Shown here one piece after another: positions 14,984-46,989 of a stretch of 64,000 nt of DNA. The notes under the pieces are model-generated. The model saw only the letters and a program-made list of their open reading frames with translations. It was not told the DNA's origin and made no database searches. Position numbers and translations under genes: made by a program. The DNA is from Bolinopsis microptera (taxonomy: Eukaryota > Ctenophora > Tentaculata > Lobata > Bolinopsidae): contig NC_087082.1 in NCBI RefSeq assembly GCF_026151205.1, positions 19,492,494 through 19,556,493 of the forward strand, given 5' to 3'. Every line of letters begins with the position of its first letter. Position 1 is the first letter of the stretch.

Positions 14984-15082
14984 AAATGTATACTTAGTCT
15001 GATAAAAATGTATACTTAGTCTGATAAAAATGTATACTTAGTCTGATAAAAATGTATACTTAGTCTGATAAAAATTTATACA
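14984..15082. repeat. 22-bp tandem repeat ending at the LU-gene start codon
   Basis: Four to five copies of a 22-bp unit (gataaaaatgtatacttagt plus ct). The final partial copy changes to gataaaaatttatacag and runs directly into the ATG at 15085. The array therefore duplicates the sequence just 5' of the first coding exon, including an AG that could act as a 3' splice site. Confidence 0.88.
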
Positions 15083-15084
15083 GA

Positions 15085-15213
15085 ATGAAGGAGACCTTGG
15101 TTGTTATAGTTCTACTGGTGTGTTCACTACCCGCAGTTTTATGCATCTCCTGTTATTCATGTTCCACTTTTGAGGTGGAGCCCGGACTAGACGAGCCAAC
15201 CAGCCACTTACGG
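15085..15213 (+). CDS. LU gene exon 1: signal peptide and first cysteines
   Basis: ATG at 15085 follows the 22-bp array. It encodes the signal peptide and ISCYSCSTFEVEPGLDEP. The frame closes at CGG with donor gtccgt at 15214, a weak donor chosen because phase 0 fits exon 2; read-through gives only 71 residues. Confidence 0.8.
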
Positions 15214-18200
15214 GTCCGTTATTACTCTTTTCCACTCATTTTCACTCTTTGGGATGTTATTTTACTATCGAAGTGTTATAGTATGCAGTGTTGTCTATAG
15301 ACAATATATAATAAATTATGTTATTACTCTTTGCCGTGCTACTTCATTTTGCGTTCATCTTTCAATATTTTTGGCCAAATCAAATTTAGACTTACAGAAT
15401 TGACAGTCTAGTTTGGTCCATATTAATAATAATATGCTACTTCGTAAAATGTTTTATCTTCAGCAATACGTGATTGACAACCAGCATTTTACGTTGATAT
15501 CACAAAGTTTGAGCACGGACTGTGATGCAAGTGGTGGTAAAAAGTGCGCGGGGGACCGCTGTATCGCTAGCCATATCAAGTAATTTCTTGTTGATTTATT
15601 ATAACTCTTTGTTTTTAAATTTGCAGATTAGCCTTAGGATTCCGATTAAAATTATGATTAACGAACGTAATTAAAAAGCAAATTTTTTGTTTTTCACTTA
15701 AAGAAGAAGTTTCATAACTTGTCAATCATATCAATCAAAGTCAAAACAAAAACTGTACTATAATTTAATGGTAAAATCACAGTTCTCTCAAAAATCTGCC
15801 AAGCTTTAATCTATCCCATTCCATTCAGCGTGAGGGGCATTAATGTAATTCCCCTTCTTATATTCCTCACTCTCAAACCACTCCCTCAGATTTGGTAACT
15901 CCTTAAATCTTAACAAATAATTTAGGACATTGTTGCAGCTTGTGAAGGCCTCAGGTAGAAACTGTCTCAGTTGATCCAGATATTCGTAAAGAAGGAAGTC
16001 CACATAAATAGTAGAGGCTCTTACGGGCAAAAAGACGTGTTTTCTGCTACGAGTTTAGAGACCTAACCGCTAATTGGACACAATAGTATGATGTCTAAGG
16101 ATCGATAATATGTTAAGAAGTATAAATTTGGCCTTATTAGTCACGTGCTATACCAATGCGCGTTTTAAACTTTGACAGTCTATTACTCTAAGGCAAATAG
16201 AGTAATTATATTCATATTTTGTCAGCAATAAGATCACATTATTTTCTATTTAGTGTGAAAATATGAGCTAGAACGGACATAATCTCGCTGAGTTATAGCT
16301 GTTTGAAATTTATGATGAACGCGCGGGTGCCAATTGATAACAACTAAATGCTTTTGCGCGTAGTGCGCGTCGAAAATTTGGCAAAAACGCTTGCGGAGTG
16401 AAAATATTCAAACTTCGATAAAGTATATAAAGTGGGTACTTCTCGGAAAGGAAAAATTTAGGCAAACACGATGTGACTATTTTTGGGTTAATTTAATACA
16501 ACTGCAAAAAATTATTCAAACTTCAAGCAAAAAAGTCAAAATTTTTACCACTTTTTTGGATTTTTACCTCAGAACAAATAGAGGGATTTGTTTTATTTTT
16601 ATACAATCTTGTGCGGCTGTCTTTTAGCTATCTTTATGCAAGTTTTGCCGACATGCCAACAAAATTAACTTGCTCAAAATATCAAAAAACATGGTTTTTT
16701 GGCCTATTTTTGGCCCAAAAATCGGTTTTTTGCGATTTTACCCCAGAACAATCAGTCCAATCATCTTGAAACCACTTTCAATCGATTCTACGGTCAAAAA
16801 TACGTCTAGTAAGGTGTATCTGGGGTCCCTAACGTATCGAGCAGACAATGCCCGTAAGAGCCTCTACTAAAACAGGCTTATCCCCCAGCAGAAATTTCTT
16901 AGTCAGAGTCTTCTCGAACTTTGGAATCCTCTCTCTCAGTCTCCGGAGTAAAGTTCTTTTCATGAACTCGTGGTCGAAGACCCCCTTCTCAGATGCTGGA
17001 AAAGGTCCACGTGCGCCGTAATAATCATAGCATGCAGCTGTTAATCTATTGCGTAGATCATAGATTTCCTGCTCAACAACTTCACACAAAACCAACTCCT
17101 CTGCACTAGTCGGGTACAACCCAAACTTCCTACCAAGATACCTCATGATCGTAATACTCTGAGTTACCTTCTTCCCGTCGTCCTCGATAAAGGGCAAGTT
17201 CCCAAATGGCATGTCCTCTTGATCCCTCATGCTAACATACTCTCTAAAGGATCCAGCAGTCGGCTGTAAAGCATTGTCTTCCCAGTCCTCGTTTTGATAT
17301 CGGAGAATGTGTCTGATTGGCTCTCCCAAGGCTCGGATAGACCAGTATGTTAGTTTTATTGTCATTTCCTAAATAAGAAGGTTGAGGTAGACCAGTATGT
17401 TAGTTTTATTGTCATTTCCTAAATAAGAAGGTTGAGGTAGACCAGTATGTTAGTTTTATTGTCATTTCCTAAATAAGCATAGATGATACGTACGAACTCT
17501 ACGAACTCCTCAGTGACAACGAACTCTACGAACTCATCAACCCAAAATTACGAACTCTTGAGGAGTTCGTTTTGTACAACTTACGTAAAATGAAATTAAA
17601 CAGAAATTGTATTTACAATTCAGCCAATTCAACACATAACATACGATTGTAAAACAACTAAATATATTGGTACTCGAAACTTCTACCACGCGTCGCGTGT
17701 ACACTGTACATTTCACAGTACAAGGACTGGTCGATCGACTGGAACATTCTGGCGCCAATAGTTTGCGCGCGCACGTTCCCTGGACACGTTGCAGAAAACT
17801 TCAACTTGTACTTCTGGCGTTGCGTTTCGTTTTCTTCTGCTGTAAACAGCTGTGATCACACCGAATGTACATTGTACATTCAGTGTTCATGTATGATGTA
17901 TACATTTTATTTTGCCATGTACAGCAGACTGAACTATTTGAAATTGAAGTGCACTGTGTATAGACTTATAGGTATAGTTGATGATTCAAATGTCATTGTA
18001 GGTACAACTTTACAACAAGTTAGTAAAATTTAACATTCTGTATTGCTCGTTATTTATTTATTTATACAAAAATATTATAGTTTTATTCTTTATTTTTACC
18101 CCAATAAATATCTGAGATCATGCGAGAAATCCTGAGCTGATTACTTTAAAAAAAAAACATTTTCCATGTTTTTTTTTGAAAAATTGACTAACGAACTCCA

Positions 18201-21200
18201 ACGAACTCTAACGAACTCCAAATTTTGAACGAACTCCACGAACTCTACGCCAAAAATCAACGAACTCCGCATCTATGTAAATAAGAAGGTTGAGGTAGAC
18301 CAGTATGTTAGTTTTATTGTCATTTCCTAAATAAGAAGGTTGAGGTAGACCAGTATGTTAGTTTTATTGTCATTTCCTAAATAAGAAGGTTGAGGTAGAC
18401 CAGTATGTTAGTTTTATTGTCATTTCCTAAATAAGAAGGTTGAGGTAGACCAGTATGTTAGTTTTATTGTCATTTCCTAAATAAGAAGGTTGAGATAGAC
18501 CAGTATGTTAGTTTTATTGTCATTTCCTAAATAAGAAGGTTGAGGTAGACCAGTATGTTAGTTTTATTGTCATTTCCTAAATAAGAAGGTTGAGGTAGAC
18601 CAGTATGTTAGTTTTATTGTCATTTCCTAAATAAGAAGGTTGAGGTAGACCAGTATGTTAGTTTTATTGTCATTTCCTAAATAAGAAGGTTGAGGTAGAC
18701 CAGTATGTTAGTTTTATTGTCATTTCCTAAATAAGAAGGTTGAGGTAGACCAGTATGTTAGTTTTATTGTCATTTCCTAAATAAGAAGGTTGAGGTAGAC
18801 CAGTATGTTAGTTTTATTGTCATTTCCTAAATAAGAAGTGTGAGGTAGACCAGTATGTTAGTTTTATTGTCATTTCCTAAATGAGAAGGTTGAGGTAGAC
18901 CAGTATGTTAGTTTTATTGTCATTTCCTAAATGAGAAGGTTGAGGTAGACCAGTATGTTAGTTTTATTGTCATTTCCTAAATAAGAAGGTTGAGGTAGAC
19001 CAGTATGTTAGTTTTATTGTCATTTCCTAAATAAGAAGGTTGAGGTAGACCAGTATGTTAGTTTTATTGTCATTTCCTAAATAAGAAGGTTGAGGTAGAC
19101 CAGTATGTTAGTTTTATTGTCATTTCCTAAATAAGAAGGTTGAGGTAGACCAGTATGTTAGTTTTATTGTCATTTCCTAAATAAGAAGGTTGAGGTAGAC
19201 CAGTATGTTAGTTTTATTGTCATTTCCTAAATAAGAAGGTTGAGGTAGACCAGTATGTTAGTTTTATTGTCATTTCCTAAATAAGAAGGTTGAGGTAGAC
19301 CAGTATGTTAGTTTTATTGTCATTTCCTAAATGAGAAGGTTGAGGTAGACCAGTATGTTAGTTTTATTGTCATTTCCTAAATAAGAAGGTTGAGGTAGAC
19401 CAGTATGTTAGTTTTATTGTCATTTCCTAAATGAGAAGGTTGAGGTAGACCAGTATGTTAGTTTTATTGTCATTTCCTAAATGAGAAGGTTGAGGTAGAC
19501 CAGTATGTTAGTTTTATTGTCATTTCCTAAATGAGAAGGTTGAGGTAGACCAGTATGTTAGTTTTATTGTCATTTCCTAAATGAGAAGGTTGAGGTAGAC
19601 CAGTATGTTAGTTTTATTGTCATTTCCTAAATGAGAAGGTTGAGGTAGACCAGTATGTTAGTTTTATTGTCATTTCCTAAATAAGAAGGTTGAGGTAGAC
19701 CAGTATGTTAGTTTTATTGTCATTTCCTAAATAAGAAGGTTGAGGTAGACCAGTATGTTAGTTTTATTGTCATTTCCTAAATAAGAAGGTTGAGGTAGAC
19801 CAGTATGTTAGTTTTATTGTCATTTCCTAAATGAGAAGGTTGAGGTAGACCAGTATGTTAGTTTTATTGTCATTTCCTAAATAAGAAGGTTGAGGTAGAC
19901 CAGTATGTTAGTTTTATTGTCATTTCCTAAATAAGAAGGTTGAGGTAGACCAGTATGTTAGTTTTATTGTCATTTCCTAAATGAGAAGGTTGAGGTAGAC
20001 CAGTATGTTAGTTTTATTGTCATTTCCTAAATAAGAAGGTTGAGGTAGACCAGTATGTTAGTTTTATTGTCATTTCCTAAATGAGAAGGTTGAGGTAGAC
20101 CAGTATGTTAGTTTTATTGTCATTTCCTAAATGAGAAGGTTGAGGTAGACCAGTATGTTAGTTTTATTGTCATTTCCTAAATGAGAAGGTTGAGGTAGAC
20201 CAGTATGTTAGTTTTATTGTCATTTCCTAAATAAGAAGGTTGAGGTAGACCAGTATGTTAGTTTTATTGTCATTTCCTAAATAAGAAGGTTGAGGTAGAC
20301 CAGTATGTTAGTTTTATTGTCATTTCCTAAATGAGAAGGTTGAGGTAGACCAGTATGTTAGTTTTATTGTCATTTCCTAAATGAGAAGGTTGAGGTAGAC
20401 CAGTATGTTAGTTTTATTGTCATTTCCTAAATAAGAAGGTTGAGGTAGACCAGTATGTTAGTTTTATTGTCATTTCCTAAATAAGAAGGTTGAGGTAGAC
20501 CAGTATGTTAGTTTTATTGTCATTTCCTAAATAAGAAGGTTGAGGTAGACCAGTATGTTAGTTTTATTGTCATTTCCTAAATGAGAAGGTTGAGGTAGAC
20601 CAGTATGTTAGTTTTATTGTCATTTCCTAAATGAGAAGGTTGAGGTAGACCAGTATGTTAGTTTTATTGTCATTTCCTAAATAAGAAGGTTGAGGTAGAC
20701 CAGTATGTTAGTTTTATTGTCATTTCCTAAATGAGAAGGTTGAGGTAGACCAGTATGTTAGTTTTATTGTCATTTCCTAAATGAGAAGGTTGAGATAGAC
20801 CAGTATGTTAGTTTTATTGTCATTTCCTAAATGAGAAGGTTGAGGTAGACCAGTATGTTAGTTTTATTGTCATTTCCTAAATGAGAAGGTTGAGGTAGAC
20901 CAGTATGTTAGTTTTATTGTCATTTCCTAAATAAGAAGGTTGAGGTAGACCAGTCCTCCTCCTCCCCAGTCCTCCTCCTCCTGAGTCCTCGTCCTGGGTC
21001 CTCCTCTTCATACTCCTCCTCTTCCTCCTCAGTCCTCAGTCCTCCTCCTCATCCTTCTCCTCAGTCCTTCATCCTCCTCCTCAGTCCTCCCCCAGTCCCC
21101 CTCATCCTCCTCCTATTCAGTCCTCCTCCTCCTCCTCCTCCTCCTCCTCCTCCTCCTCAGTCCTCCTCCTTCTCAGTCCTCCTTAGTCCTCCTCCTTCTC

Positions 21201-24200
21201 CTCCTGAGTCCTCCTCCTGCTCCTCCTCCTCTTCCCTCTCGGTCATCCTCCTCAGCCATCCTCCTTAGTCCTCCTCAGTCCTCCTCCTCAGTCCTCCTCC
21301 TCCTGGGTCCTCCTCCTCCTCTTCATCCTCCTCCTCTTCCTCCTCGGTCCTCAGTCCTCGGTCCTCAGTCCTCGGTCCTCATCCTTCTCACCAGTCCTCC
21401 TCCTCCTCAGTCCTCTCCCAGTCCCCCTCCTTCTCCTCCTCCTATTCAGTCCTCCTCCTCCTCCTCAGTTCTCCTCAGTCCTCCTTCTCATTTCTCCTAA
21501 GTCCTCCTCCTGAGTCCTCCTCCTCCTCTTCCTCCTGAGTCCTCCTCCTCCTCCCTCTCAGTCATCCTCCTCAGCCATCCTCCTCAGCCATCCTCCTCAG
21601 CCATCCTCCTCAGCCATCCTCCTCAGTACTCCTCAGTCTTCCACCGTTCGGTACCCTATATTTTCAAAACGGACAAAAAATAGAGCGGATAAAAACGGAC
21701 AAAAATGGACAAAAATGGAAATAACATTTAGATGCTTCCTCCTCCTACTCTTCCTCCTCCTCCTCCTGGGTCTTCCTGATCTTCCTCAGTCCTCTTCCTC
21801 CTCCCCTCCTCCTCCTACTCCTCCTCCTCGTCCTCAGTCCTCCTCATCAGTCCTCAACAGTCCTCCTCCTCCCCAGTCCTCCTCCTCCTCCTGGGGCCTT
21901 TTCCTGGGTCCTCCTCCTGGGTCCTCCTCCTCCTAGGTCCTCCTTCTCCTCCTCAGTCCTTCTCCTCCTCCTCCTCAGTCCTCTTCCTCCTCTTCCTCCT
22001 CCTCCTCCCTCTCAGTCATCCTCCTCAGCCATCCTCCTCAGGCCTCAGCCATCCTCCTGGGTCCTCCTCCTTCTCAGTCCTCTTCAGTCCTCCTCCTGAG
22101 TCCTCCTCCTCCTGAGTCATCCTCCTCAGTTCTCCTCCTCCTCCACCTAGGTCATCCTTCTGGGAAAAATTCTCAAAATGTTTGTCCGCTAATGTCCACC
22201 AATGTCCGTCCGAGTCCGCCAATGTCCGTCCGGGTCCGCAAATGTCCGTCCGAGTCCGCCGGTGTCCGTCCGGGTCCGCCGGTGTCCGTCCGAGTCCGCC
22301 AGTGTCCGTCCGTGTCCGCCAATGTCCCAAAAAACACGTCCGTTGTCTCATAGAATCCAAAAAGGACAGGACATGGGCGGACATAGACGGACATGACACC
22401 CCCCCCCCTATGTCACCAAACTAAACCAATAAGTAATTTTAGATTGTTATATTTTTCTATATAGTTTATATAACAAGTATATTGACGTAGTGGATGGTTG
22501 AGGGGGTTTCAAGCACAGGTCACTCTCAAATCCTAAAGATAAGCAGTGGCCTTCGGCACTTGAAACCTCTTCAAACCTCCCCTGATATATTTATTATTGA
22601 TATTGTTTGATTGTGCCGTAAAAATAAATATTTGTTTTATTAAATATTTGTTTTATTAGTATGTTAGTTTTATTGTCATTTCCTAAATAAGAAGGTTGAG
22701 GTAGACCAGTATGTTAGTTTTATTGTCATTTCCTAAATAAGAAGGTTGAGGTAGACCAGTATGTTAGTTTTATTGTCATTTCCTAAATGAGAAGGTTGAG
22801 GTAGACCAGTATGTTAGTTTTATTGTCATTTCCTAAATAAGAAGGTTGAGGTAGACCAGTATGTTAGTTTTATTGTCATTTCCTAAATAAGAAGGTTGAG
22901 GTAGACCAGTATGTTAGTTTTATTGTCATTTCCTAAATAAGAAGGTTGAGGTAGACCAGTATGTTAGTTTTATTGTCATTTCCTAAATAAGAAGGTTGAG
23001 GTAGACCAGTATGTTAGTTTTATTGTCATTTCCTAAATAAGAAGGTTGAGATAGACCAGTATGTTAGTTTTATTGTCATTTCCTAAATAAGAAGGTTGAG
23101 GTAGACCAGTATGTTAGTTTTATTGTCATTTCCTAAATAAGAAGGTTGAGGTAGACCAGTATGTTAGTTTTATTGTCATTTCCTAAATAAGAAGGTTGAG
23201 GTAGACCAGTATGTTAGTTTTATTGTCATTTCCTAAATAAGAAGGTTGAGGTAGACCAGTATGTTAGTTTTATTGTCATTTCCTAAATAAGAAGGTTGAG
23301 GTAGACCAGTATGTTAGTTTTATTGTCATTTCCTAAATAAGAAGGTTGAGGTAGACCAGTATGTTAGTTTTATTGTCATTTCCTAAATAAGAAGGTTGAG
23401 ATAGACCAGTATGTTAGTTTTATTGTCATTTCCTAAATAAGAAGGTTGAGGTAGACCAGTATGTTAGTTTTATTGTCATTTCCTAAATGAGAAGGTTGAG
23501 GTAGACCAGTATGTTAGTTTTATTGTCATTTCCTAAATAAGAAGGTTGAGGTAGACCAGTATGTTAGTTTTATTGTCATTTCCTAAATAAGAAGGTTGAG
23601 GTAGACCAGTATGTTAGTTTTATTGTCATTTCCTAAATAAGAAGGTTGAGGTAGACCAGTATGTTAGTTTTATTGTCATTTCCTAAATAAGAAGGTTGAG
23701 GTAGACCAGTATGTTAGTTTTATTGTCATTTCCTAAATAAGAAGGTTGAGGTAGACCAGTATGTTAGTTTTATTGTCATTTCCTAAATAAGAAGGTTGAG
23801 GTAGACCAGTATGTTAGTTTTATTGTCATTTCCTAAATAAGAAGGTTGAGGTAGACCAGTATGTTAGTTTTATTGTCATTTCCTAAATAAGAAGGTTGAG
23901 GTAGACCAGTATGTTAGTTTTATTGTCATTTCCTAAATAAGAAGGTTGAGGTAGACCAGTATGTTAGTTTTATTGTCATTTCCTAAATAAGAAGGTTGAG
24001 GTAGACCAGTATGTTAGTTTTATTGTCATTTCCTAAATAAGAAGGTTGAGGTAGACCAGTATGTTAGTTTTATTGTCATTTCCTAAATAAGAAGGTTGAG
24101 GTAGACCAGTATGTTAGTTTTATTGTCATTTCCTAAATAAGAAGGTTGAGGTAGACCAGTATGTTAGTTTTATTGTCATTTCCTAAATAAGAAGGTTGAG

Positions 24201-33200: not shown

Positions 33201-36200
33201 ACCCAGCTCCTACTGATGGTTAGTGTGAAGTATAAACCACAAATAGATACCCATTAAACCCAGCTCCTACTGATGGTTAGTGTGAAGTATAAACCACAAA
33301 TAGATACCCATTAAACCCAGCTCCTACTGATGGTTAGTGTGAAGTATAAACCACAAATATATACCCATTAAACCCAGCTCCTACTGATGGTTAGTGTGAA
33401 GTATAAACCACAAATATATACCCATTAAACCCAGCTCCTACTGATGGTTAGTATGAAGTATAAACCACAAATATATACCCATTAAACCCAGCTCCTACTG
33501 ATGGTTAGTGTGAAGTATAAACCACAAATATATACCCATTAAACCCAGCTCCTACTGATGGTTAGTGTGAAGTATAAACCACAAATATATACCCATTAAA
33601 CCCAGCTCCTACTGATGGTTAGTGTGAAGTATAAACCACAAATAGATACCCATTAAACCCAGCTCCTACTGATGGTTAGTGTGAAGTATAAACCACAAAT
33701 ATATACCCATTAAACCCAGCTCCTACTGATGGTTAGTGTGAAGTATAAACCACAAATATATACCCATTAAACCCAGCTCCTACTGATGGTTAGTGTGAAG
33801 TATAAACCACAAATATATACCCATTAAACCCAGCTCCTACTGATGGTTAGTGTGAAGTATAAACCACAAATAGATACCCATTAAACCCAGCTCCTACTGA
33901 TGGTTAGTGTGAAGTATAAACCACAAATATATACCCATTAAACCCAGCTCCTACTGATGGTTAGTGTGAAGTATAAACCACAAATAGATACCCATTAAAC
34001 CCAGCTCCTACTGATGGTTAGTGTGAAGTATAAACCACAAATAGATACCCATTAAACCCAGCTCCTACTGATGGTTAGTGTGAAGTATAAACCACAAATA
34101 GATACCCATTAAACCCAGCTCCTACTGATGGTTAGTGTGAAGTATAAACCACAAATAGATACCCATTAAACCCAGCTCCTACTGATGGTTAGTGTGAAGT
34201 ATAAACCACAAATATATACCCATTAAACCCAGCTCCTACTGATGGTTAGTGTGAACTATAAACCACAAATAGATACCCATTAAACCCAGCTCCTACTGAT
34301 GGTTAGTGTGAAGTATAAACCACAAATAGATACCCATTAAACCCAGCTCCTACTGATGGTTAGTGTGAAGTATAAACCACAAATATATACCCATTAAACC
34401 CAGCTCCTACTGATGGTTAGTGTGAAGTATAAACCACAAATAGATACCCATTAAACCCAGCTCCTACTGATGGTTAGTGTGAACTATAAACCACAAATAG
34501 ATACCCATTAAACCCAGCTCCTACTGATGGTTAGTGTGAACTATAAACCACAAATAGATACCCATTAAACCCAGCTCCTACTGATGGTTAGTGTGAAGTA
34601 TAAACCACAAATAGATACCCATTAAACCCAGCTCCTACTGATGGTTAGTGTGAAGTATAAACCACAAATAGATACCCATTAAACCCAGCTCCTACTGATG
34701 GTTAGTGTGAACTATAAACCACAAATAGATACCCATTAAACCCAGCTCCTACTGATGGTTAGTGTGAAGTATAAACCACAAATAGATACCCATTAAACCC
34801 AGCTCCTACTGATGGTTAGTGTGAACTATAAACCACAAATATATACCCATTAAACCCAGCTCCTACTGATGGTTAGTGTGAAGTATAAACCACAAATATA
34901 TACCCATTAAACCCAGCTCCTACTGATGGTTAGTGTGAAGTATAAACCACAAATAGATACCCATTAAACCCAGCTCCTACTGATGGTTAGTGTGAAGTAT
35001 AAACCACAAATATATACCCATTAAACCCAGCTCCTACTGATGGTTAGTGTGAAGTATAAACCACAAATAGATACCCATTAAACCCAGCTCCTACTGATGG
35101 TTAGTGTGAAGTATAAACCACAAATATATACCCATTAAACCCAGCTCCTACTGATGGTTAGTGTGAAGTATAAACCACAAATAGATACCCATTAAACCCA
35201 GCTCCTACTGATGGTTAGTGTGAACTATAAACCACAAATAGATACCCATTAAACCCAGCTCCTACTGATGGTTAGTATGAAGTATAAACCACAAATATAT
35301 ACCCATTAAACCCAGCTCCTACTGATGGTTAGTGTGAAGTATAAACCACAAATATATACCCATTAAACCCAGCTCCTACTGATGGTTAGTGTGAAGTATA
35401 AACCACAAATAGATACCCATTAAACCCAGCTCCTACTGATGGTTAGTGTGAAGTATAAACCACAAATATATACCCATTAAACCCAGCTCCTACTGATGGT
35501 TAGTGTGAAGTATAAACCACAAATAGATACCCATTAAACCCAGCTCCTACTGATGGTTAGTGTGAAGTATAAACCACAAATATATACCCATTAAACCCAG
35601 CTCCTACTGATGGTTAGTGTGAAGTATAAACCACAAATATATACCCATTAAACCCAGCTCCTACTGATGGTTAGTGTGAAGTATAAACCACAAATATATA
35701 CCCATTAAACCCAGCTCCTACTGATGGTTAGTGTGAAGTATAAACCACAAATATATACCCATTAAACCCAGCTCCTACTGATGGTTAGTGTGAAGTATAA
35801 ACCACAAATATATACCCATTAAACCCAGCTCCTACTGATGGTTAGTGTGAAGTATAAACCACAAATATATACCCATTAAACCCAGCTCCTACTGATGGTT
35901 AGTGTGAAGTATAAACCACAAATATATACCCATTAAACCCAGCTCCTACTGATGGTTAGTATGAAGTATAAACCACAAATATATACCCATTAAACCCAGC
36001 TCCTACTGATGGTTAGTGTGAAGTATAAACCACAAATATATACCCATTAAACCCAGCTCCTACTGATGGTTAGTGTGAAGTATAAACCACAAATATATAC
36101 CCATTAAACCCAGCTCCTACTGATGGTTAGTATGAAGTATAAACCACAAATAGATACCCATTAAACCCAGCTCCTACTGATGGTTAGTGTGAAGTATAAA

Positions 36201-39200
36201 CCACAAATATATACCCATTAAACCCAGCTCCTACTGATGGTTAGTGTGAAGTATAAACCACAAATAGATACCCATTAAACCCAGCTCCTACTGATGGTTA
36301 GTATGAAGTATAAACCACAAATAGATACCCATTAAACCCAGCTCCTACTGATGGTTAGTGTGAAGTATAAACCACAAATATATACCCATTAAACCCAGCT
36401 CCTACTGATGGTTAGTGTGAAGTATAAACCACAAATATATACCCATTAAACCCAGCTCCTACTGATGGTTAGTATGAAGTATAAACCACAAATAGATACC
36501 CATTAAACCCAGCTCCTACTGATGGTTAGTGTGAAGTATAAACCACAAATATATACCCATTAAACCCAGCTCCTACTGATGGTTAGTGTGAAGTATAAAC
36601 CACAAATATATACCCATTAAACCCAGCTCCTACTGATGGTTAGTGTGAAGTATAAACCACAAATATATACCCATTAAACCCAGCTCCTACTGATGGTTAG
36701 TGTGAAGTATAAACCACAAATAGATACCCATTAAACCCAGCTCCTACTGATGGTTAGTGTGAAGTATAAACCACAAATAAATACCCATTAAACCCAGTTC
36801 TACTGATGGTTAGTGTGAAGTATAAACCACAAATAGATACCCATTAAACCCAGCTCCTACTGATGGTTAGTGTGAAGTATAAACCACAAATATATACCCA
36901 TTAAACCCAGCTCCTACTGATGGTTAGTGTGAAGTATAAACCACAAATATATACCCATTAAACCCAGCTCCTACTGATGGTTAGTGTGAAGTATAAACCA
37001 CAAATATATACCCATTAAACCCAGCTCCTACTGATGGTTAGTGTGAAGTATAAACCACAAATATATACCCATTAAACCCAGCTCCTACTGATGGTTAGTG
37101 TGAAGTATAAACCACAAATAGATACCCATTAAACCCAGCTCCTACTAATGGTTAGTGTGAAGTATAAACCACAAATATATACCCATTAAACCCAGCTCAC
37201 CTGATGGTTAGTGTGAAGTATAAACCACAAATAGATACCCATTAAACCCAGCTCCTACTGATGGTTAGTGTGAAGTATAAACCACAAATATATACCCATT
37301 AAACCCAGCTCCTACTGATGGTTAGTGTGAAGTATAAACCACAAATATATACCCATTAAACCCAGCTCACCTGATGGTTAGTGTGAAGTATAAACCACAA
37401 ATAGATACCCATTAAACCCAGCTCCTACTGATGGTTAGTGTGAAGTATAAACCACAAATATATACCCATTAAACCCAGCTCACCTGATGGTTAGTGTGAA
37501 GTATAAACCACAAATATATACCCATTAAACCCAGCTCCTACTAATGGTTAGTGTGAAGTATAAACCACAAATAGATACCCATTAAACCCAGCTCCTACTG
37601 ATGGTTAGTGTGAAGTATAAACCACAAATAGATACCCATTAAACCCAGCTCCTACTGATGGTTAGTGTGAAGTATAAACCACAAATAGATACCCATTAAA
37701 CCCAGCTCCTACTGATGGTTAGTGTGAAGTATAAACCACAAATATATACCCATTAAACCCAGCTCCTACTGATGGTTAGTGTGAAGTATAAACCACAAAT
37801 AGATACCCATTAAACCCAGCTCCTACTGATGGTTAGTGTGAAGTATAAACCACAAATATATACCCATTAAACCCAGCTCCTACTGATGGTTAGTGTGAAG
37901 TATAAACCACAAATATATACCCATTAAACCCAGCTCACCTGATGGTTAGTGTGAAGTATAAACCACAAATATATACCCATTAAACCCAGCTCACCTGATG
38001 GTTAGTGTGAAGTATAAACCACAAATATATACCCATTAAACCCAGCTCCTACTGATGGTTAGTGTGAACTATAAACCACAAATAGATACCCATTAAACCC
38101 AGCTCCTACTGATGGTTAGTGTGAAGTATAAACCACAAATATATACCCATTAAACCCAGCTCCTACTGATGGTTAGTGTGAAGTATAAACCACAAATATA
38201 TACCCATTAAACCCAGCTCCTACTAATGGTTAGTGTGAAGTATAAACCACAAATATATACCCATTAAACCCAGCTCACCTGATGGTTAGTGTGAAGTATA
38301 AACCACAACTATATACCCATTAAACCCAGCTCCTACTAATGGTTAGTGTGAAGTATAAACCACAAATATAAACCCATTAAACCCAGCTCACCTGATGGTT
38401 AGTGTGAAGTATAAACCACAACTATATACCCATTAAACCCAGCTCCTACTAATGGTTAGTGTGAAGTATAAACCACAAATATATACCCATTAAACCCAGC
38501 TCCTACTGATGGTTAGTATGAAGTATAAACCACAAATATAAACCCATGACACCCAGCTCACCTGATGGTTAGTGTGAAGTATAAACCACAAATATATACC
38601 CATTAAACCCAGCTCCTACTGATGGTTAGTGTGAAGTATAAACCACAAATAGATACCCATTAAACCCAGCTCCTACTGATGGTTAGTATGAAGTATAAAC
38701 CACAAATATATACCCATTAAACCCAGCTCCTACTGATGGTTAGTGTGAAGTATAAACCACAAATAGATACCCATTAAACCCAGCTCCTACTGATGGTTAG
38801 TGTGAAGTATAAACCACAAATAGATACCCATTAAACCCAGCTCCTACTGATGGTTAGTATGAAGTATAAACCACAAATATATACCCATTAAACCCAGCTC
38901 CTACTGATGGTTAGTGTGAAGTATAAACCACAAATATATACCCATTAAACCCAGCTCCTACTGATGGTTAGTATGAAGTATAAACCACAAATATATACCC
39001 ATTAAACCCAGCTCCTACTGATGGTTAGTGTGAAGTATAAACCACAAATAGATACCCATTAAACCCAGCTCCTACTGATGGTTAGTGTGAAGTATAAACC
39101 ACAAATATATACCCATTAAACCCAGCTCCTACTGATGGTTAGTATGAAGTATAAACCACAAATATATACCCATTAAACCCAGCTCCTACTGATGGTTAGT

Positions 39201-42200
39201 GTGAAGTATAAACCACAAATAGATACCCATTAAACCCAGCTCCTACTGATGGTTAGTGTGAAGTATAAACCACAAATAGATACCCATTAAACCCAGCTCC
39301 TACTGATGGTTAGTGTGAAGTATAAACCACAAATATATACCCATTAAACCCAGCTCCTACTGATGGTTAGTGTGAACTATAAACCACAAATATATACCCA
39401 TTAAACCCAGCTCCTACTGATGGTTAGTGTGAAGTATAAACCACAAATAGATACCCATTAAACCCAGCTCCTACTGATGGTTAGTGTGAAGTATAAACCA
39501 CAAATAGATACCCATTAAACCCAGCTCCTACTGATGGTTAGTGTGAAGTATAAACCACAAATATATACCCATTAAACCCAACTCCTACTGATGGTTAGTG
39601 TGAACTATAAACCACAAATATATACCCATTAAACCCAGCTCCTACTGATGGTTAGTGTGAACTATAAACCACAAATATATACCCATTAAACCCAGCTCCT
39701 ACTGATGGTTAGTATGAAGTATAAACCACAAATATATACCCATTAAACCCAGCTCCTACTGATGGTTAGTGTGAAGTATAAACCACAAATAGATACCCAT
39801 TAAACCCAGCTCCTACTGATGGTTAGTGTGAAGTATAAACCACAAATATATACCCATTAAACCCAGCTCCTACTGATGGTTAGTGTGAACTATAAACCAC
39901 AAATATATACCCATTAAACCCAGCTCCTACTGATGGTTAGTGTGAAGTATAAACCACAAATATATACCCATTAAACCCAGCTCCTACTGATGGTTAGTGT
40001 GAACTATAAACCACAAATATATACCCATTAAACCCAGCTCCTACTAATGGTTAGTGTGAACTATAAACCACAAATATATACCCATTAAACCCAGCTCCTA
40101 CTGATGGTTAGTGTGAAGTATAAACCACAAATAAATACCCATTAAACCCAGCTCCTACTGATGGTTAGTATGAAGTATAAACCACAAATAGATACCCATT
40201 AAACCCAGCTCCTACTGATGGTTAGTATGAAGTATAAACCACAAATAGATACCCTTTAAACCCAGCTCCTACTAATGGTTAGTATGAACTATAAACCACA
40301 AATAGATACCCATTAAACCCAGCTCCTACTAATGGTTAGTATGAACTATAAACCACAAATATATACCCATTAAACCCAGCTCCTACTAATGGTTAGTATG
40401 AACTATAAACCACAAATAGATACCCATTAAACCCAGCTCCTACTAATGGTTAGTATGAAGTATAAACCACAAATATATACCCATTAAACCCAGCTCCTAC
40501 TAATGGTTAGTGTGAACTATAAACCACAAATAGATACCCTTTAAACCCAGCTCCTACTAATGGTTAGTATGAACTATAAACCACAAATATATACCCATTA
40601 AACCCAGCTCCTACTGATGGTTAGTATGAAGTATAAACCACAAATAGATACCCATTAAACCCAGCTCCTACTGATGGTTAGTATGAAGTATAAACCACAA
40701 ATAGATATCCATTAAACCCAGCTCCTACTAATGGTTAGTGTGAACTATAAACCACAAATATATACCCATTAAACCCAGCTCCTACTAATGGTTAGTGTGA
40801 ACTATAAACCACAAATATATACCCATTAAACCCAGCTCCTACTGATGGTTAGTATGAAGTATAAACCACAAATAGATACCCATTAAACCCAGCTCCTACT
40901 AATGGTTAGTGTGAAGTATAAACCACAAATATATACCCATTAAACCCAGCTCCTACTAATGGTTAGTATGAAGTATAAACCACAAATAAATACCCATTAA
41001 ACCCAGCTCCTACTGATGGTTAGTATGAAGTATAAACCACAAATAAATACCCATTAAACCCAGCTCCTACTAATGGTTAGTGTGAACTATAAACCACAAA
41101 TAGATACCCATTAAACCCAGCTCCTACTGATGGTTAGTGTGAAGTATAAACCACAAATAGATACCCATTAAACCCAGCTCCTACTGATGGTTAGTGTGAA
41201 GTATAATCCACAAATAAATACCCATTAAACCCAGCTCCTACTGATGGTTAGTATGAAGTATAAACCACAAATAGATACCCATTAAACCCAGCTCCTACTG
41301 ATGGTTAGTATGAAGTATAAACCACAAATAGATTCCCATTAAACCCAGCTCCTACTGATGGTTAGTATGAAGTATAATCCACAAATATATACCCATTAAA
41401 CCCAGCTCCTACTAATGGTTAGTGTGAAGTATAAACCACAAATATATACCCATTAAACCCAGCTCCTACTGATGGTTAGTGTGAAGTATAAACCACAAAT
41501 AGATACCCATTAAACCCAGCTCCTACTGATGGTTAGTATGAAGTATAAACCACAAATAGATACCCATTAAACCCAGCTCCTACTGATGGTTAGTGTGAAG
41601 TATAAACCACAAATAGATACCCATTAAACCCAGCTCCTACTGATGGTTAGTGTGAAGTATAAACCACAAATAGATACCCATTAAACCCAGCTCCTACTGA
41701 TGGTTAGTGTGAAGTATAAACCACAAATATATACCCATTAAACCCAGCTCACCTGATGGTTAGTGTGAAGTATAAACCACAAATAGATACCCATTAAACC
41801 CAGCTCCTACTAATGGTTAGTGTGAAGTATAAACCACAAATATATACCCATTAAACCCAGCTCCTACTGATGGTTAGTGTGAACTATAATCCACAAATAG
41901 ATACCCATTAAACCCAGCTCACCTGATCTGCTAGTAGTACAGACAAGACAGTTGTCATGGTAACATGACTCATGTAGTACAATACCAGCGGTACACTAGT
42001 ATTATGTTACGAATAACCAGCCTGTACGAGTTGTCCTTCCCCCAATGCTCCCTAAACATACTGATACATTTTAAGTAGCTGATTTTGGGAAGACGACCCC
42101 GACCAGTGACCGACAACTAAGAACCTCTGATCATTCCGGGCTCCCACAGGTATCACATCACATGGCCCAATCAGTGACGTATCATTTCCCAAGCTAGCAT

Positions 42201-42953
42201 GTTAATTAGTTAAAATTGACAGGTTCTTAGTTGTCCGTTAGCCACTGCTTTTTGTTGTCCCAATTATTGTTAGACTCAGGCTGATATAGGGACAAAATAT
42301 TGTAGGTTCTGTTACGATGATTACTCTAGTAAGTGATGTTATTGATATGTTGATACTCATTTTAATCATACTTTAAGAATTTATCAACAATTTTTCAGAA
42401 CCTATACCCCCAGTAGCACCAACCCAAGAACCTAGTAACAGTTACCCTAGTAACAAGACTGCAGCTACGGCTAAACCACCCACTTCTGACACTGACGAGA
42501 ACGGTAGTGGAGCTGAAAACGGCGGAAGTCAAAATGATGAGACTGAAAGTGATAACAATGAGAATTCTAGTCAAAATGACGGTGTGATGGAAAAGACTGA
42601 TGAAGTTACTGCTAAACCAGTAACTGTAGAAATTGACCAAGGACAGGATGGCGGGAACGTTGAAGGTGTGGAAACTGAAAGTGATAACAATAAAAATTCT
42701 AGTCAAACTGAAATTAACGACAGCGGAAAAACTGGGAATCACACTATGGATGTAGAGGAAGGTAGTTCGCAGCAAGATGAGGACGAGGTTGATGGAAAAG
42801 AGGTTGGAAGTGAAAATGAAACTGAGCCTCAGAGCGAAAAAGATCCGTCCAGTCCAGACTCACCAGCATTTGAAAAATCAGAAGATTTGGACAATACAAA
42901 TGAGTCAACCGAAGCTGAATCTCAGTTGGACGAAGATATTGGTAGCGATGGTG

Positions 42954-43020
<67 letters not shown>

Positions 43021-43165
43021 AGGTGAGGGGAAAGGTGAGATTGATAGTACAAATGAAAGCGAAGTTGGAAATACCCCTGCAGACAGTGGTTATTGCAGAA
43101 ATGTTTCAGCTGTTAGTGGATTTTTGATCACGATGATTGTTTTAATCGTTCATGGAGAACATTGA
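15085..43165 (+). CDS. GPI-anchored Ly6/uPAR (LU) domain protein, five exons
   Basis: Joining 15085-15213, 15464-15579, 27792-27913, 28042-28143 and 42399-43165 gives one continuous frame of about 411 codons; every junction has GT/AG ends and matching phases (0, 2, 1, 1). Residues 1-20 (MKETLVVIVLLVCSLPAVLC) form a signal peptide. The LU domain has ten cysteines: CYSC in exon 1, three in exon 2, two in exon 3, and KCYMSTC then the family-typical DLCN in exon 4. Exon 5 encodes an acidic Ser/Glu/Asn stalk of about 225 residues and a hydrophobic end (VSGFLITMIVLIV) typical of a GPI signal. LU proteins are cell-surface binding or modulatory proteins; the partner here is unknown. Introns 2 and 4 are swollen by minisatellites, and an antisense GST gene lies in intron 2. 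Confidence 0.85.
15464..15579 (+). CDS. LU gene exon 2
   Basis: Acceptor ttttatcttcag before 15464, donor gtaatt at 15580. It encodes QYVIDNQHFTLISQSLSTDC and DASGGKKCAGDRCIASHI, with three LU cysteines. It ends in phase 2, as exon 3 requires. Confidence 0.83.
15806..17365 (-). pseudogene. Glutathione S-transferase (mu/sigma-like), interrupted by a transposon
   Basis: Minus-strand coding runs from ATG at 17363-17365 to about 16870 (165 residues) and resumes at about 16008 to the stop at 15806-15808 (66 residues), near the usual cytosolic GST length. The N-terminal thioredoxin-like domain has the catalytic-Tyr context LTYWSIRALGEPIR and the glutathione-binding NLPFIEDDGKKVTQSITIMR. The helical domain continues through FLLGDKPV and then YVDFLLYEYLDQLRQFLP. 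An 861-bp inverted-repeat element (16009-16869) sits between V165 and Y166; removing it with one copy of a 3-bp duplication leaves the frame intact. No ordinary introns are seen, so this may be a retrocopy. ATTAAA lies just 3' near 15765. Either the insertion kills the gene or it is spliced out imperfectly. The protein family is certain; the activity is not. Confidence 0.85.
16009..16869. mobile_element. 861-bp inverted-repeat transposon inside the GST coding sequence
   Basis: Ends are perfect 21-bp inverted repeats (tagtagaggctcttacgggc plus a, and its complement at 16849-16869). Weaker similarity continues to about 55 bp, for example tttctgctacgag against gtctgctcgatac. It is flanked by AAA on both sides, consistent with a 3-bp target duplication, though other parses such as TA are possible. 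No transposase; the 78- and 66-codon frames inside look spurious. GC-rich hairpin gcgcgtagtgcgcgt at about 16355. Confidence 0.82.
17338..17477. repeat. 50-bp minisatellite, three copies at the GST 5' end (array B1)
   Basis: About two and a half units run seamlessly into the GST gene: unit bases 1-27 are the GST codons for MTIKLTYWS in antisense. The sequence just 5' of the ATG on the minus strand is ccttcttatttaggaaATG, a pyrimidine-rich stretch ending in AG, so the unit straddles a possible 3' (or trans-) splice acceptor and a start codon. Confidence 0.93.
17478..18277. mobile_element. 800-bp nonautonomous hAT-like DNA transposon
   Basis: It interrupts the 50-bp array. Ends are short inverted repeats (catagatg... 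and ...catctatg) flanked by a perfect 8-bp target duplication, taaataag, at 17470-17477 and 18278-18285; taaataag occurs once in the intact satellite unit. Both ends are packed with the subterminal motif acgaactc (about five left, seven right, some inverted), resembling subterminal transposase-binding repeats of hAT elements. The interior is AT-rich with no transposase frame. Confidence 0.88.
18278..20954. repeat. 50-bp minisatellite, clean copy (array B2)
   Basis: About 53 near-perfect head-to-tail units. Variation is almost limited to ataag/atgag, ggttgagg/gtgtgagg and gaggtag/gagatag. atgag units are frequent here and rare in array C. The array ends abruptly at gaccagt before the pyrimidine-rich block. 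Confidence 0.95.
20955..22165. repeat. Pyrimidine-rich cctcctcag minisatellite
   Basis: About 1.2 kb made largely of TCC/CCT triplets with recurring cag and ctgggt spacers (cctcctcctcagtcctcctc). It is interrupted at about 21640-21720 by acggacaaaaatggacaaaa-type repeats. The long polypyrimidine runs could form triplex DNA. The reading frames (21715-21936 and others) are low-complexity shadows. Confidence 0.9.
22170..22400. repeat. 20-bp minisatellite (gtccgtccgagtccgcc type)
   Basis: About ten copies of aatgtccgtccgagtccgcc with ggt/aat and gag/ggg variants, trailing into a ggacatgggcggacat stretch and a C-run. Frames are open on both strands only because the unit lacks stop codons. Confidence 0.88.
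22488..22582. repeat. Imperfect inverted repeat
   Basis: Left arm ggttgagggggtttcaagca and right arm gcacttgaaacctcttcaaa are complementary with a few mismatches over about 25 bp. It sits in the single-copy spacer between the GTCC repeat and array C. It may be a small fold-back element or a structured transcript. Confidence 0.5.
22658..26254. repeat. 50-bp minisatellite, clean copy with higher-order structure (array C)
   Basis: About 72 near-perfect units. The rare gaagtgtgag variant occurs at 24391, 25041, 25141, 25691 and 25791, and gagatag at 25201 and 25851: repeated 650-bp (13-unit) spacings. A gagatag/atgag pair at 23401/23481 recurs at 24751/24831, 1350 bp (27 units) later. Confidence 0.95.
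26255..26651. other. Single-copy intron sequence
   Basis: AT-rich DNA between two arrays in LU intron 2. A 63-codon frame at 26435-26626 has no recognisable domain. Nothing else seen. Confidence 0.4.
26652..27834 (+). repeat. 62-bp minisatellite built on the LU exon 3 splice acceptor
   Basis: Nineteen copies of a 62-bp unit (five carry one extra base: copies 1, 2, 5, 8 and 16). Each contains gatttcccctgcag (pyrimidine tract and AG) followed by the first 43 bases of exon 3 (attatcaagagaggcagaag onward) and the spacer aaaatg. In the exon frame, reading from any upstream acceptor into the next copy meets TGA, because 62 is not a multiple of three. The gatatt variant in copies 2, 5 and 8 marks a three-unit higher-order repeat. 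Confidence 0.96.
27792..27913 (+). CDS. LU gene exon 3, starting in the last 62-bp repeat
   Basis: Acceptor ttcccctgcag before 27792, donor gtgaaa at 27914. The first 43 bases lie in the last copy of the 62-bp array; the rest encodes IELHECGSLWLETEQKFCK (two LU cysteines) and SAETGIS. Only the last of 19 identical-looking acceptors gives the full open frame. Confidence 0.85.
28042..28143 (+). CDS. LU gene exon 4, end of LU domain
   Basis: Acceptor attatgcacag before 28042. It encodes DNLKAAKCYMSTCQEDLCN, the canonical LU ending, then IPNALLEPLTSPTD. Donor is gttagt at 28144. The last 12 bases and the donor are the seed of the 57-bp array that follows. Confidence 0.87.
28132..41937 (+). repeat. 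57-bp minisatellite built on the LU exon 4 splice donor (about 242 copies)
   Basis: It fills almost all of intron 4. The unit starts with ctcctactgatg (end of exon 4), then the donor gttagtgtg, then aagtataaaccacaaatata, then tacccattaaacccag. Variants are tagata/tatata/taaata, gtgtg/gtatg, gaag/gaac, aaacc/aatcc, ctgat/ctaat and tcacctgat; the last clusters at 37190-38570. Copies near the ends are more diverged than the central block. Each unit keeps a donor-like gttagt and an AG before ctcctactgatg. Confidence 0.97.
41938..42398. other. End of LU intron 4
   Basis: Single-copy AT-rich DNA holding one MITE-like element and the acceptor of exon 5. Confidence 0.6.
42104..42247. mobile_element. 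144-bp MITE-like element with CAGTG ends
   Basis: Left end cagtgaccgacaactaagaa, right end complementary (ttcttagttgtccgttagccactg region), about 26 bp with two gaps and few mismatches. CAGTG-type termini occur in hAT-like elements, but no 8-bp duplication is seen. Confidence 0.6.
42399..43165 (+). CDS. LU gene exon 5: acidic stalk and GPI signal
   Basis: Acceptor caatttttcag before 42399; the first two bases complete Glu after exon 4. 254 residues: a Pro/Thr-rich start (PIPPVAPTQEPSNSYPSNKT), then a strongly acidic Asn/Ser/Glu/Gly/Asp region with several N-x-S/T sites, an SE dipeptide run, and DSGYCRNVSAVSGFLITMIV as a likely GPI attachment and tail region. Stop TGA at 43163-43165. No cytoplasmic tail beyond HGEH. 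Confidence 0.85.
42953..43020 (+). repeat. In-frame gaaagt hexanucleotide repeat (Ser-Glu run)
   Basis: About 11 tandem gaaagt units in exon 5 encode alternating Glu-Ser in the stalk. The period of six keeps frame. Long open frames on other strands here are shadows. Confidence 0.93.
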
Positions 43166-43575
43166 ACAGCTAAAAACGTTATATTCGAGAAAGATTGAAA
43201 TATCAAATTTTGGCATCGTGACAGTTAAAATATTTTACAGAAAATTTGAGGTTAAAACAAACGAATTAATGATGTAAATTATTTGCTTGTTTAAAACAGA
43301 CTTAATCCTTAAAAGTAGTTATTCGCTATATATCGTAATCGCAAATTAGATAAAATGTGTTCATTGCTGAGCTGTCATTATTTATAATCATTCGTTATAA
43401 ATCAATATTGAAAATTCGTGGAAAATCTGATTTGACAAAAGTCAATAGATTGTTTACTTGTCTCCTGTTAGTGCATGTAGATTGTAGAGTCCAATATCCC
43501 ATTATAATTTATAAATAAGAACAAGTAGGTATATGTAGGTGTAAAGGACCCAGACATTATAATCAAAAAGAGATG
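43166..43575. other. LU gene 3' flank
   Basis: AT-rich presumed 3' UTR. A stretch at about 43492-43540 (atatcccattataat and ataaataagaacaagtaggt) recurs as a diverged direct repeat at 43717-43754, on the far side of the MITE. Confidence 0.5.
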
Positions 43576-43720
43576 ATATTTGACCAAAACCCATAATCAT
43601 GGGTAGAGTGGACCGCTGCTAGTGTCTCTCTTTCCAAAACAAAAGGAAATGATATTAATTTGAATGACCGTCCGCAAATGCGGTCCACTCTACCCATGAT
43701 TATGGGTTTTGGTCAAATAT
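43576..43720. mobile_element. 145-bp MITE with perfect 41-bp inverted repeats
   Basis: Arms 43576-43616 and 43680-43720 are exact complements over 41 bases (left begins atatttgaccaaaacccata). The 63-bp spacer is non-coding. Perfect arms suggest recent mobility or selection for the hairpin. The flanking sequence is itself a direct repeat, so the target duplication is hard to define. Confidence 0.85.
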
Positions 43721-43895
43721 CCCATAATAAATAAGAACAAGTATAGGTAGGTGATACACATAACAACTCCCAATCTGGTTACCTGGTTACCGCCATGTGG
43801 TTACCCATGGTTACACAACATAATATAACAATCGAAATCCAAAACCACGTTTCCAGTTTCCTCCCCGACAGTATCCAGAACAGCAAGCCCGTAAT

Positions 43896-44009
43896 TAATC
43901 AGAGCAGAGCAGGTCAGACTTAAGTAGCCTGTTACCATGACTACTCTGTAACTAATCAGAGCAGAGCAGGTCAGACTTAAGTAGCCTGTTACCATGACTA
44001 CTCTGGAGG
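43896..44009. repeat. 57-bp tandem duplication over a gene 3' end
   Basis: Two near-identical 57-bp copies (43896-43952 and 43953-44009) containing agagcagagcaggtcagact. On the minus strand the unit holds the last 18 or so codons and the stop region of the small gene below, so a second copy of its C-terminal coding lies just downstream of its stop. Confidence 0.9.
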
Positions 44010-44644
44010 CGGTATATCTGAGGGGTCTGCTGTCTGGAGCCTATTTCCCTGCTGGTGATCAGCCGCACCTTCGTGTCGAAGTAGGATATCGGTTGCAACA
44101 CTTTACCGTCTCTAGGTGTGTGTACCTGAAAGTGAAGGTGTCACTTTCACTTCGTGTCGAAGTAGGATATAGGTTGCAACACTTTATCGTCTCTAGGTGT
44201 GTGTACATGCTGTGGGCAGCGTTTTCAGGAGAGTTTATGCTCAGCTTATTAATTGATATTATCCATTTTATCATCGATTTTGTAAGTCTTTAAATCTACT
44301 GCGATTGATTATTGAAAAGCATTTGATGTCTGTACAATGTACCATTATAGGCTTTGTTAGAATTAAATTTGATTTGTTAGATTAATTCAAGAGACAGTAC
44401 AAAATCGCGATAAAAATATGATAACTTGATAAGAGCGTTATAACTTAATCATTATAACTTTATAAGGCGTACAAGTATGAATACTTAATCTAACCGGTAG
44501 GGCGTGCTCCTTCATAATATCAGACCGGTAGATATTATCCCAATACTCCCTAGCCTTCTTCTCGTGCGCAATCTTCTCCTTCCAGATAGTCTCGTCTATC
44601 ACCTGACTGATCTGGGCTGTGTTCAGCTGCCTTCTCCCCGACAT
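43952..44644 (-). CDS. Probable small two-exon protein (88 aa), unrecognised
   Basis: Exon 1 44644-44495 encodes 50 residues from MSGRRQLNTAQISQVIDETI to the end SDIMKEHALP, with donor gttaga. Exon 2 44068-43952 encodes VRLITSREIGSRQQTPQIYR through KSDLLCSD and stop, phase 0 on both sides. The composition (amphipathic, charged, Trp/Tyr spaced, WKEKIAHEKKAREYWDN) looks like a real protein and recalls small axonemal microtubule-inner proteins, but I cannot assign a family. An in-frame ATG lies six codons upstream. The acceptor (cttcgacacgaag) has a weak pyrimidine tract; the exon 2 join is inference. An E-box array lies about 0.5 kb upstream. Confidence 0.5.
44069..44208. repeat. 81-bp tandem duplication ending at a predicted splice acceptor
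   Basis: cttcgtgtcgaagtaggata recurs 81 bp apart (44069 and 44150), followed by about 59 bp of similar sequence. On the minus strand each copy ends in cttcgacacgaag; the 44069 copy ends exactly at the predicted exon 2 start. The plus-strand 99-codon frame across it is probably a shadow. Confidence 0.85.
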
Positions 44645-44699: not shown

Positions 44700-45143
44700 A
44701 TTTATATGTTGCAATAGTGTGTTGGAAAGGATATGAGAATATAGGGTAACAACCGGACACATCGCACAAGTATCTGATGTTGAAAGAGAATTTGTTAACC
44801 ACTAAAAATAACTGGTAATTGTAAACAAATCTATCAAACAAACAATGAAAACCTATCATATAATAGTAGGAGCATAAACAAAATCATGTAAAAAATAAAA
44901 AACGTACAACAAATTAAAACAAGCTCGACATATGCTCATGACATCATTTCTCGACAATAACAAAAGAACCAAGACAGTACAGCCACGTTGCTAAAAAAAC
45001 TGCTCAAGATTAGAACATGACACGAGTGTTTTCATAGGACCGATCGGAGGACGAGAGGCATCCTCCGAGGGGGTCTGCTTGCCAGGCTATTAGAGCTTTG
45101 TGCAGATCATCAAACTAACACCATTATCCTCTTTCGCAAGCTA
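44700..45143. other. 5' flank of the small minus-strand gene
   Basis: AT-rich, no coding signal; presumed promoter region. Confidence 0.4.
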
Positions 45144-46530: not shown

Positions 46531-46989
46531 TGTCGTGAAGCTTGTCTGAATATTACACATGACAGCTTTACAGTATGAATAGTGTCCTTTGCTGTGTCAG
46601 AGAGTAGCAATTCTGTAGATATCCAAACTGTTTGATTGAGAATGTTCTTTTTGATAGATGGTTAATGGACTATTCTATTTTACTACTAGACTATAAACAC
46701 GATGGGTTTATTGAATAATAAAGTGGTTCCTTACAAGGTTAACTTCAAGTGACAGCGATTGACCAATCTGCTTTTACTAAATTCTAGGTATTTAAGAATG
46801 AGTGATTTCGACGTAATTTTCATAGTGAATTTTTCTTTTGGTTTAAATTTAATAGAACTAGCAGGAACCCGTATAACCAAAAGACTCAAAAGACTAAAAT
46901 AACTTTTACCTATTTAATTTGCGTTTTTGACACCACTTGATGGTCAAAATTGTGGGCTCTAAAACTCCTATTGCTTGGCCAATTTTCAA
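46531..46989. other. Unassigned AT-rich stretch
   Basis: No gene or repeat recognised. Confidence 0.4.

Follow-up and report, generated by a model that had tools for sequence, protein, structure and literature searches.

Minisatellite arrays on gene edges at a Bolinopsis microptera locus: a probable case of the mirage type

Genes and arrays of the LU locus

The 64,000-nucleotide (nt) stretch analyzed here (C11:19492494-19556493; the window) of the ctenophore Bolinopsis microptera carries a gene of LU type, a GST gene (GST-B) nested in antisense orientation within LU intron 2 and a small, weakly LLC1-like gene, and arrays of minisatellite size, with units of 22, 50, 57 and 62 bp in 4.5 to 242 copies, lie on or against the edges of the first two. 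Genes nested within introns are a frequent feature of another ctenophore, Hormiphora (PMC8527503). The genome searches reported below took in 264.65 Mb on 232 contigs. Joined in phase, the five LU exons give an open reading frame (ORF) of 411 amino acids (aa), with a cysteine pattern that we take to be Ly6/uPAR-like. The LU gene and the arrays on it are arranged as follows:

14984..15081, plus strand: 22-bp array, 4.5 copies (program TRF), with an acceptor-like AG and the LU ATG directly after it
15085..15213, plus strand: LU exon 1, signal peptide and first Cys, in a phase-consistent 411-aa ORF
15464..15579, plus strand: LU exon 2, placed by ORF phase, also present in paralogous locus A
26652..27835, plus strand: 62-bp array, 19 copies, 99% alike; unit of 19 nt of intron with a TGCAG acceptor and 43 nt of exon 3
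27792..27913, plus strand: LU exon 3, first 43 nt inside the final copy of the 62-bp array
28042..28143, plus strand: LU exon 4, final 12 nt inside the first copy of the 57-bp array
28132..41920, plus strand: 57-bp array, 242 copies, 97% alike; unit of the 12-nt end of exon 4, donor GTTAGT and 39 nt of intron
42399..43165, plus strand: LU exon 5, acidic stalk and hydrophobic C-terminus, GPI-like (glycosylphosphatidylinositol) by eye

The units of the 62-bp and 57-bp arrays each join exon to intron. As the preliminary description of this DNA had stated, the 62-bp unit contains the acceptor and first 43 nt of LU exon 3 and the 57-bp unit the final 12 nt and donor of LU exon 4; for both, as for the 50-bp array described below, the match between unit and edge is exact. 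The authentic copy of the 62-bp array, judged by the ORF, lies at the exon-side end and the spare copies are intronic, and all three upstream acceptors that were tried (3/3) led to a stop in the LU frame. The 57-bp unit splits into 12 nt of exonic and 45 nt of intronic sequence, donor included, and its 242 copies account for 13.8 of the 14.3 kb of LU intron 4. Because an AG stands exactly 12 nt before GTTAGT, as is the case at 225 of the 241 GTTAGT sites of this array, nearly every unit could in principle be a 12-nt microexon, the inclusion of which would add four codons (APTD) and keep the frame. The 22-bp array does lie at the LU start, but it had been said to run into the ATG, and this part of the claim did not stand: according to TRF the array ends at 15081, followed by the acceptor-like AG at 15082-15083 and the ATG from 15085, and it merely abuts the gene edge, 3 nt short of the start codon. 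Its copy number is 4.5 in the window and 5.2 in paralogous locus A.

A smaller event of the same sort of edge is found on the small gene:

44069..44209, minus strand: 81-bp duplication over the exon-2 acceptor, of which 60 bp align
44495..44644, minus strand: exon 1 of the small gene, weakly LLC1-like by profile match

This is one duplication, giving one extra copy of the acceptor region, and not an array. It had been described as ending at the exon-2 acceptor; it is indeed placed there but spans the acceptor, with 60 bp aligning at 3 mismatches (44069-44128 versus 44150-44209). With the inner acceptor, exon 2 starts at 44125 and the predicted protein of 107 aa matches the LLC1 profile from 8 to 93 (E 8.2e-5, 23.7 bits), whereas use of the outer acceptor gives a match from 7 to 34 (E 0.0013, 19.8 bits); both scores lie below the Pfam cut-off for LLC1 of 27.3 bits. 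Since the match is lengthened from 7-34 to 8-93, the inner copy is likelier to be the functional one and the outer copy a spare.

The array units are unrelated to each other, as had been noted: for each of 10 pairs the score was reached in 18 to 99 of 100 shuffles. The view that several arrays, unrelated to one another, began across gene edges is borne out at this locus.

The GST repeat and its extension to about 104 kb

The GST gene and the elements around it are listed here:

15806..17365, minus strand: GST-B gene, coding sequence split by a mobile-element-like insert
17338..26254, minus strand: 50-bp array upstream of GST-B, with an acceptor-like AG, ATG and nine codons per unit, holding two unrelated inserts
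11..8635, minus strand: final part of an array that begins at GST-A and repeats the 50-bp unit over about 104 kb (C11:19397257-19501128)
16010..16869, no strand assigned: insert of about 860 bp with inverted ends AGTAGAGGCTCTTACGGGC, splitting the GST-B coding sequence; GST-A is without it
17478..18277, no strand assigned: 800-bp insert in the 50-bp array, ends CATAGATG/CATCTATG, 8-bp target duplication TAAATAAG, hAT-like by eye

Each 50-bp unit consists, in order, of TTCTTATTTAG, GAA, ATG and nine GST codons (MTIKLTYWS), and spans the start codon together with a putative acceptor AG, in agreement with the preliminary description. The GST start is backed independently by an NCBI protein encoded on the same contig (P0007, 231 aa), which begins MTIKLTYWSIRALGEP, and by the homologue P0009 (231 aa), which begins MTIKLTYWSIRGLGEP, i.e., MTIKLTYWS. 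A GST paralogue on C5, 67% identical, begins MTITLTYWS, and the 160 nt displayed before its ATG are free of arrays. Because this paralogue is without the array there and P0009 shares MTIKLTYWS with the unit, the coding part of the 50-bp repeat came from the gene and not the reverse. As leaders are common in Hormiphora, where at least 56% of mRNAs carry trans-spliced ones (PMC8527503), the AGs before the GST and LU start codons may be trans-splice acceptors.

The 50-bp array was correctly recognized in the preliminary description, but its extent was underestimated, since about 104 kb of the same repeat lie at GST-A, 112 kb away. This array begins at the intact GST-A gene and measures about 103.9 kb, or some 2,080 units of 50 bp; the tract at 11-8635 of the window is not independent of the 50-bp case, because it has the same unit and forms the end of this array. 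The stretches read were 15.2 kb at the start of the array, the 50 kb preceding the window and 8.6 kb inside it; the remaining 30 kb were sampled with seven 500-bp probes, all of which (7/7) were 99.6-100% covered by the unit. The orientation is single throughout, and unit coverage ranges from 95.2% (L037) to 100% in the 10-kb pieces lying wholly inside the array. Exact matches to a 35-nt stretch of the unit number 343 genome-wide, with 343 in forward and 0 in reverse orientation, and every place among the matches listed falls in this array. The far part of the array shows many indels and a self-similarity of no more than about 83%, and is either old or poorly polished.

The two loci, 112 kb apart, each carry LU exons 1-2, GST and the 22-bp and 50-bp arrays, with identities of 96.6% in the block of LU exons 1-2, 98.8% in the GST block and 95.0% in a third block upstream, whereas LU exons 3-5 were found in the genome nowhere but in the window, the paralogous locus being without them. 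We read this arrangement as a segmental duplication that would have carried the array along. The LU exons differ at too few places between the loci to gauge selection. As a separate observation, the 50-bp array at 20954-22650 is also broken by TCC-rich and GTCCGCCAAT-type repeats, and repeats like these occur on other chromosomes, in L046 (C5) and L048 (C1).

Gene-edge arrays elsewhere in the genome

How often a unit would come to lie over a splice site by chance was estimated for the LU gene. With the arrays collapsed, a randomly placed unit covers the splice site with P 0.053 for the 62-bp unit (LU intron of 2223 nt) and P 0.193 for the 57-bp unit (LU intron of 523 nt), values that are not extreme for a finding chosen post hoc. 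Moreover, a random sample was taken, for which 60 places were drawn and the first 20 used, 5 kb each (L045-L064). At a TRF score of at least 80 and a period of at least 10 these contained 42 distinct arrays, occupying 17,148 of 100,000 bases. ORFs were listed near all 42 and contacts were judged by eye; as only six arrays were viewed at base level, contacts may be missed.

Four of the 42 arrays were in contact with a splice edge, and for two of these four the exon was supported by homology. In L054 (729-865) a 36-bp unit holds the acceptor and first nt of a DEAD-box exon (E 6.6e-13), the match of the preceding exon stopping at profile position 115 and that of the exon at the array resuming at 116. 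In L050 (420-501) the array ends at the acceptor that immediately precedes a cohesin-loader exon (E 1.8e-13). The other two contacts are an array in L054 (4203-4313) that stops 4 nt short of an exon placed by ORF and splice motif, and one in L050 (3270-3889) that starts 3 nt past a candidate donor GT at 3267, next to an ORF without a Pfam match. A fifth edge array, in L048 (4136-4244), has a 23-bp unit comprising the final codons of a DNase II gene together with its stop, which favors tolerance at any gene edge over a mechanism tied to splice sites; it is also the coding-end counterpart to the start-codon arrays. Outside the random sample, among the 17 loci found with the GST query, a 54-bp array of 9 copies lies over a donor in L024 (204-711; C4, about 1.277 Mb), the exon being dynein-heavy-chain-like by a weak match (E 0.001) below the Pfam cut-off. 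A 42-bp array in L013, considered as a further donor array, was left out of the count because of its open reading frame, which may be coding.

The number of contacts expected rests on an assumed number of splice edges and an assumed contact zone of 15 nt. For 45, 70, 100 and 150 edges it is 0.38, 0.59, 0.84 and 1.26, and the probability of at least four contacts is 0.0006, 0.003, 0.011 and 0.039; for at least two, counting the homology-supported contacts alone, it is 0.056, 0.12, 0.21 and 0.36. The sample yields an excess if all four contacts are real edges, but not clearly so when they are restricted to the two with homology.

Furthermore, splice-like words were searched genome-wide for three copies spaced 27-57 nt, relative to single occurrences. 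The donor word GGTAAGT gave 6114 three-copy matches in 36804 occurrences (16.6%), as compared to 66 in 28761 (0.23%) for the control TGAATGG, 1225 in 31148 (3.9%) for GTGATAG and 2309 in 33534 (6.9%) for GATAGTG. The donor word is thus 2.4 to 72 times more arrayed than the controls, which points to some enrichment, but the controls themselves differ 30-fold, a spread too wide for the word test to decide on a splice-site hotspot. Grouped by eye, the distinct arrays in C1:1-2.25 Mb number 10 for GGTAAGT, 3 for GTGATAG and 1 for TGAATGG, the control GATAGTG contributing totals without positions; among the GTGATAG arrays, the one at C1:885206 also repeats the donor word, and TGAATGG has 11 arrays in the entire genome. 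A 93-fold excess of the donor word (6114 versus 66) was dropped, as further controls showed the reversed word to be exceptionally uncommon in arrays, and a count of 197 versus 13 for the acceptor word TTTTGCAG was set aside, as most places among the matches listed sit in a few arrays. Donor-motif scores (best score per array, textbook weights) of 47 distinct arrays, drawn from the random sample, the flanks and the GST-query loci, showed no excess over those of the reversed units (Wilcoxon P 0.69). Edge arrays recur in this genome and may be enriched; a hotspot would go beyond what these counts support.

Independently of the gene edges, palindromic, transcription-factor-like words were seen in several arrays, at 45140-46532 and 11382-11548 of the window, in L045 (4560-4751), L060 (1301-1358) and L015 (466-522) and likewise in the two L050 arrays (420-501 and 3270-3889). 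The words are CACGTG, the X-box-like GTTACCATGGCAAC or close variants, and TGACGTCA.

Origin and meaning of the edge arrays

It had been stated that no named process was known for such arrays. This does not hold: minisatellite-like repeats of intron-exon boundaries are called "mirages", a term coined for amphioxus Adh3, and in PMC3087553 they are also described for the amphioxus globin genes BflGb6 and BflGb9, with units of 10-160 bp and, in two BflGb6 haplotypes, 6 and 3 units. There, Adh3 data together with globin reverse transcription PCR suggest normal splicing. Similar repeats are reported for amphioxus TnC and PGBD5 in PMC3902484. The ctenophore arrays resemble amphioxus mirages in that the unit comprises exon end, splice site and intron, that either intron end is affected, that spare copies are intronic and that splicing presumably relies on the normal site. 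They differ in their host, in their size (copy numbers of 19 to 242 and one array extending over about 104 kb, compared to 3 and 6 units in BflGb6), in the involvement of the start-codon exon and in the presence of several arrays within one gene. Internal tandem repeats that alter human genes in segmental duplications (PMC2812944) likewise occur at exon-intron boundaries and may create introns; they average four units of 30 bp, half of them are coding and they belong to primate-specific duplicates. The model of Rogers (as cited in PMC3087553), in which duplication of an AG/GT proto-splice site yields tandem splice signals that turn the sequence between the copies intronic, is similar in this respect, whereas the ctenophore introns, unlike those of an intron-gain model, need not be new. 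No report of ctenophore mirages was found in the open-access literature. The arrays described here are a large-scale new case of the known mirage phenomenon and not a new phenomenon.

We consider it probable that these are mirage-type minisatellites, i.e., duplications straddling a gene edge that have grown by ordinary minisatellite turnover, the copy joined to the exon being the working one. In the sequence of events we propose, a small tandem duplication would by chance straddle an edge: an acceptor in LU exon 3 and in exon 2 of the small gene, a donor in LU exon 4 and the start-codon exon with its acceptor-like AG in GST, the LU 22-bp array abutting an edge of the start-codon type. The array would then expand by, e.g., unequal exchange or slippage. 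The working copy would be the one joined to the remaining exon, that is the last acceptor or the first donor, as the ORFs suggest, with the other copies sitting in the intron or in upstream DNA. Because spare copies are intronic or upstream, growth of the array would cost the mRNA little, and we infer that the spares are neutral. In the GST case satellite scale would have been reached in this way, with nine GST codons and their leader repeated over about 104 kb. Three points weigh against this explanation. The LU protein is without a Pfam match and has no relative among the protein-database candidates scored, so that the LU gene model rests on ORF, phase and cysteine pattern; the choice of spliced copies is likewise derived from the ORFs; and the four contacts in the random sample, if all are real edges, exceed uniform seeding, an outcome beyond what plain neutrality predicts.

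A first rival is a true hotspot, in which gene edges, above all splice sites, would initiate tandem duplication through R-loops, splice-linked breaks or another cause, and arrays would begin at them more frequently than in other non-coding DNA. The four contacts in 42 arrays (0.38-1.26 expected; P between 0.0006 and 0.04 if 45 to 150 edges are assumed), the 16.6% of GGTAAGT occurrences that are arrayed and the 10 donor-word arrays in C1:1-2.25 Mb are in line with it. However, two of the four contacts are homology-supported (P for two 0.056-0.36), the edge number and contact zone are assumed and the contacts were called by eye, the control words differ 30-fold among themselves, the donor-motif score of the 47 arrays equals that of their reversed units, and 38 of the 42 random arrays are without a recognized splice edge while the L048 array sits on a stop codon; in our view a hotspot is unlikely. 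Selection for the spare splice sites, as buffering copies, as decoys or as 12-nt in-frame microexons adding APTD to the LU stalk, could draw on the regular spacing of AG and GTTAGT at 225 of 241 sites and on the frame-neutral inclusion. Against this, the candidate acceptor of the 57-bp unit (TACCCATTAAACCCAG) has few pyrimidines, neither the 62-bp nor the 50-bp unit has a length divisible by three, and duplication by itself explains the regularity; selection is very improbable. It is just as hard to credit that wrong exon borders or mis-assembled arrays have created the coincidence. The absence of LU among the scored database proteins and the low self-similarity of the far part of the array of about 104 kb, which could reflect poor polishing, would fit such an artefact, but the GST start agrees with an NCBI protein and another homologue, phase is kept over five LU exons, the DEAD-box edge is homology-supported and the inner acceptor of the small gene is backed by its weak LLC1 match.

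A bolder proposition, which we regard as doubtful, is that gene edges are the birthplaces of ctenophore tandem arrays, with duplications over splice sites and start codons arising or persisting far above the intron background, filling introns and reaching 100 kb. If this were true, exon edges would be a main source of the repeats and intron growth of this genome, and LU intron 4 would offer more than 200 in-frame 12-nt microexons. Returning to the mirage-type explanation that we prefer, mirages have so far been described from single amphioxus genes, and the finding of several such arrays within a single ctenophore gene, one about 100 kb long, together with others in random DNA suggests a wider animal phenomenon. 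It also raises a question that can be counted, namely how often array units lie over splice sites as compared to intron interiors, per base. Mirages could in this manner drive intron growth and the birth of satellites.

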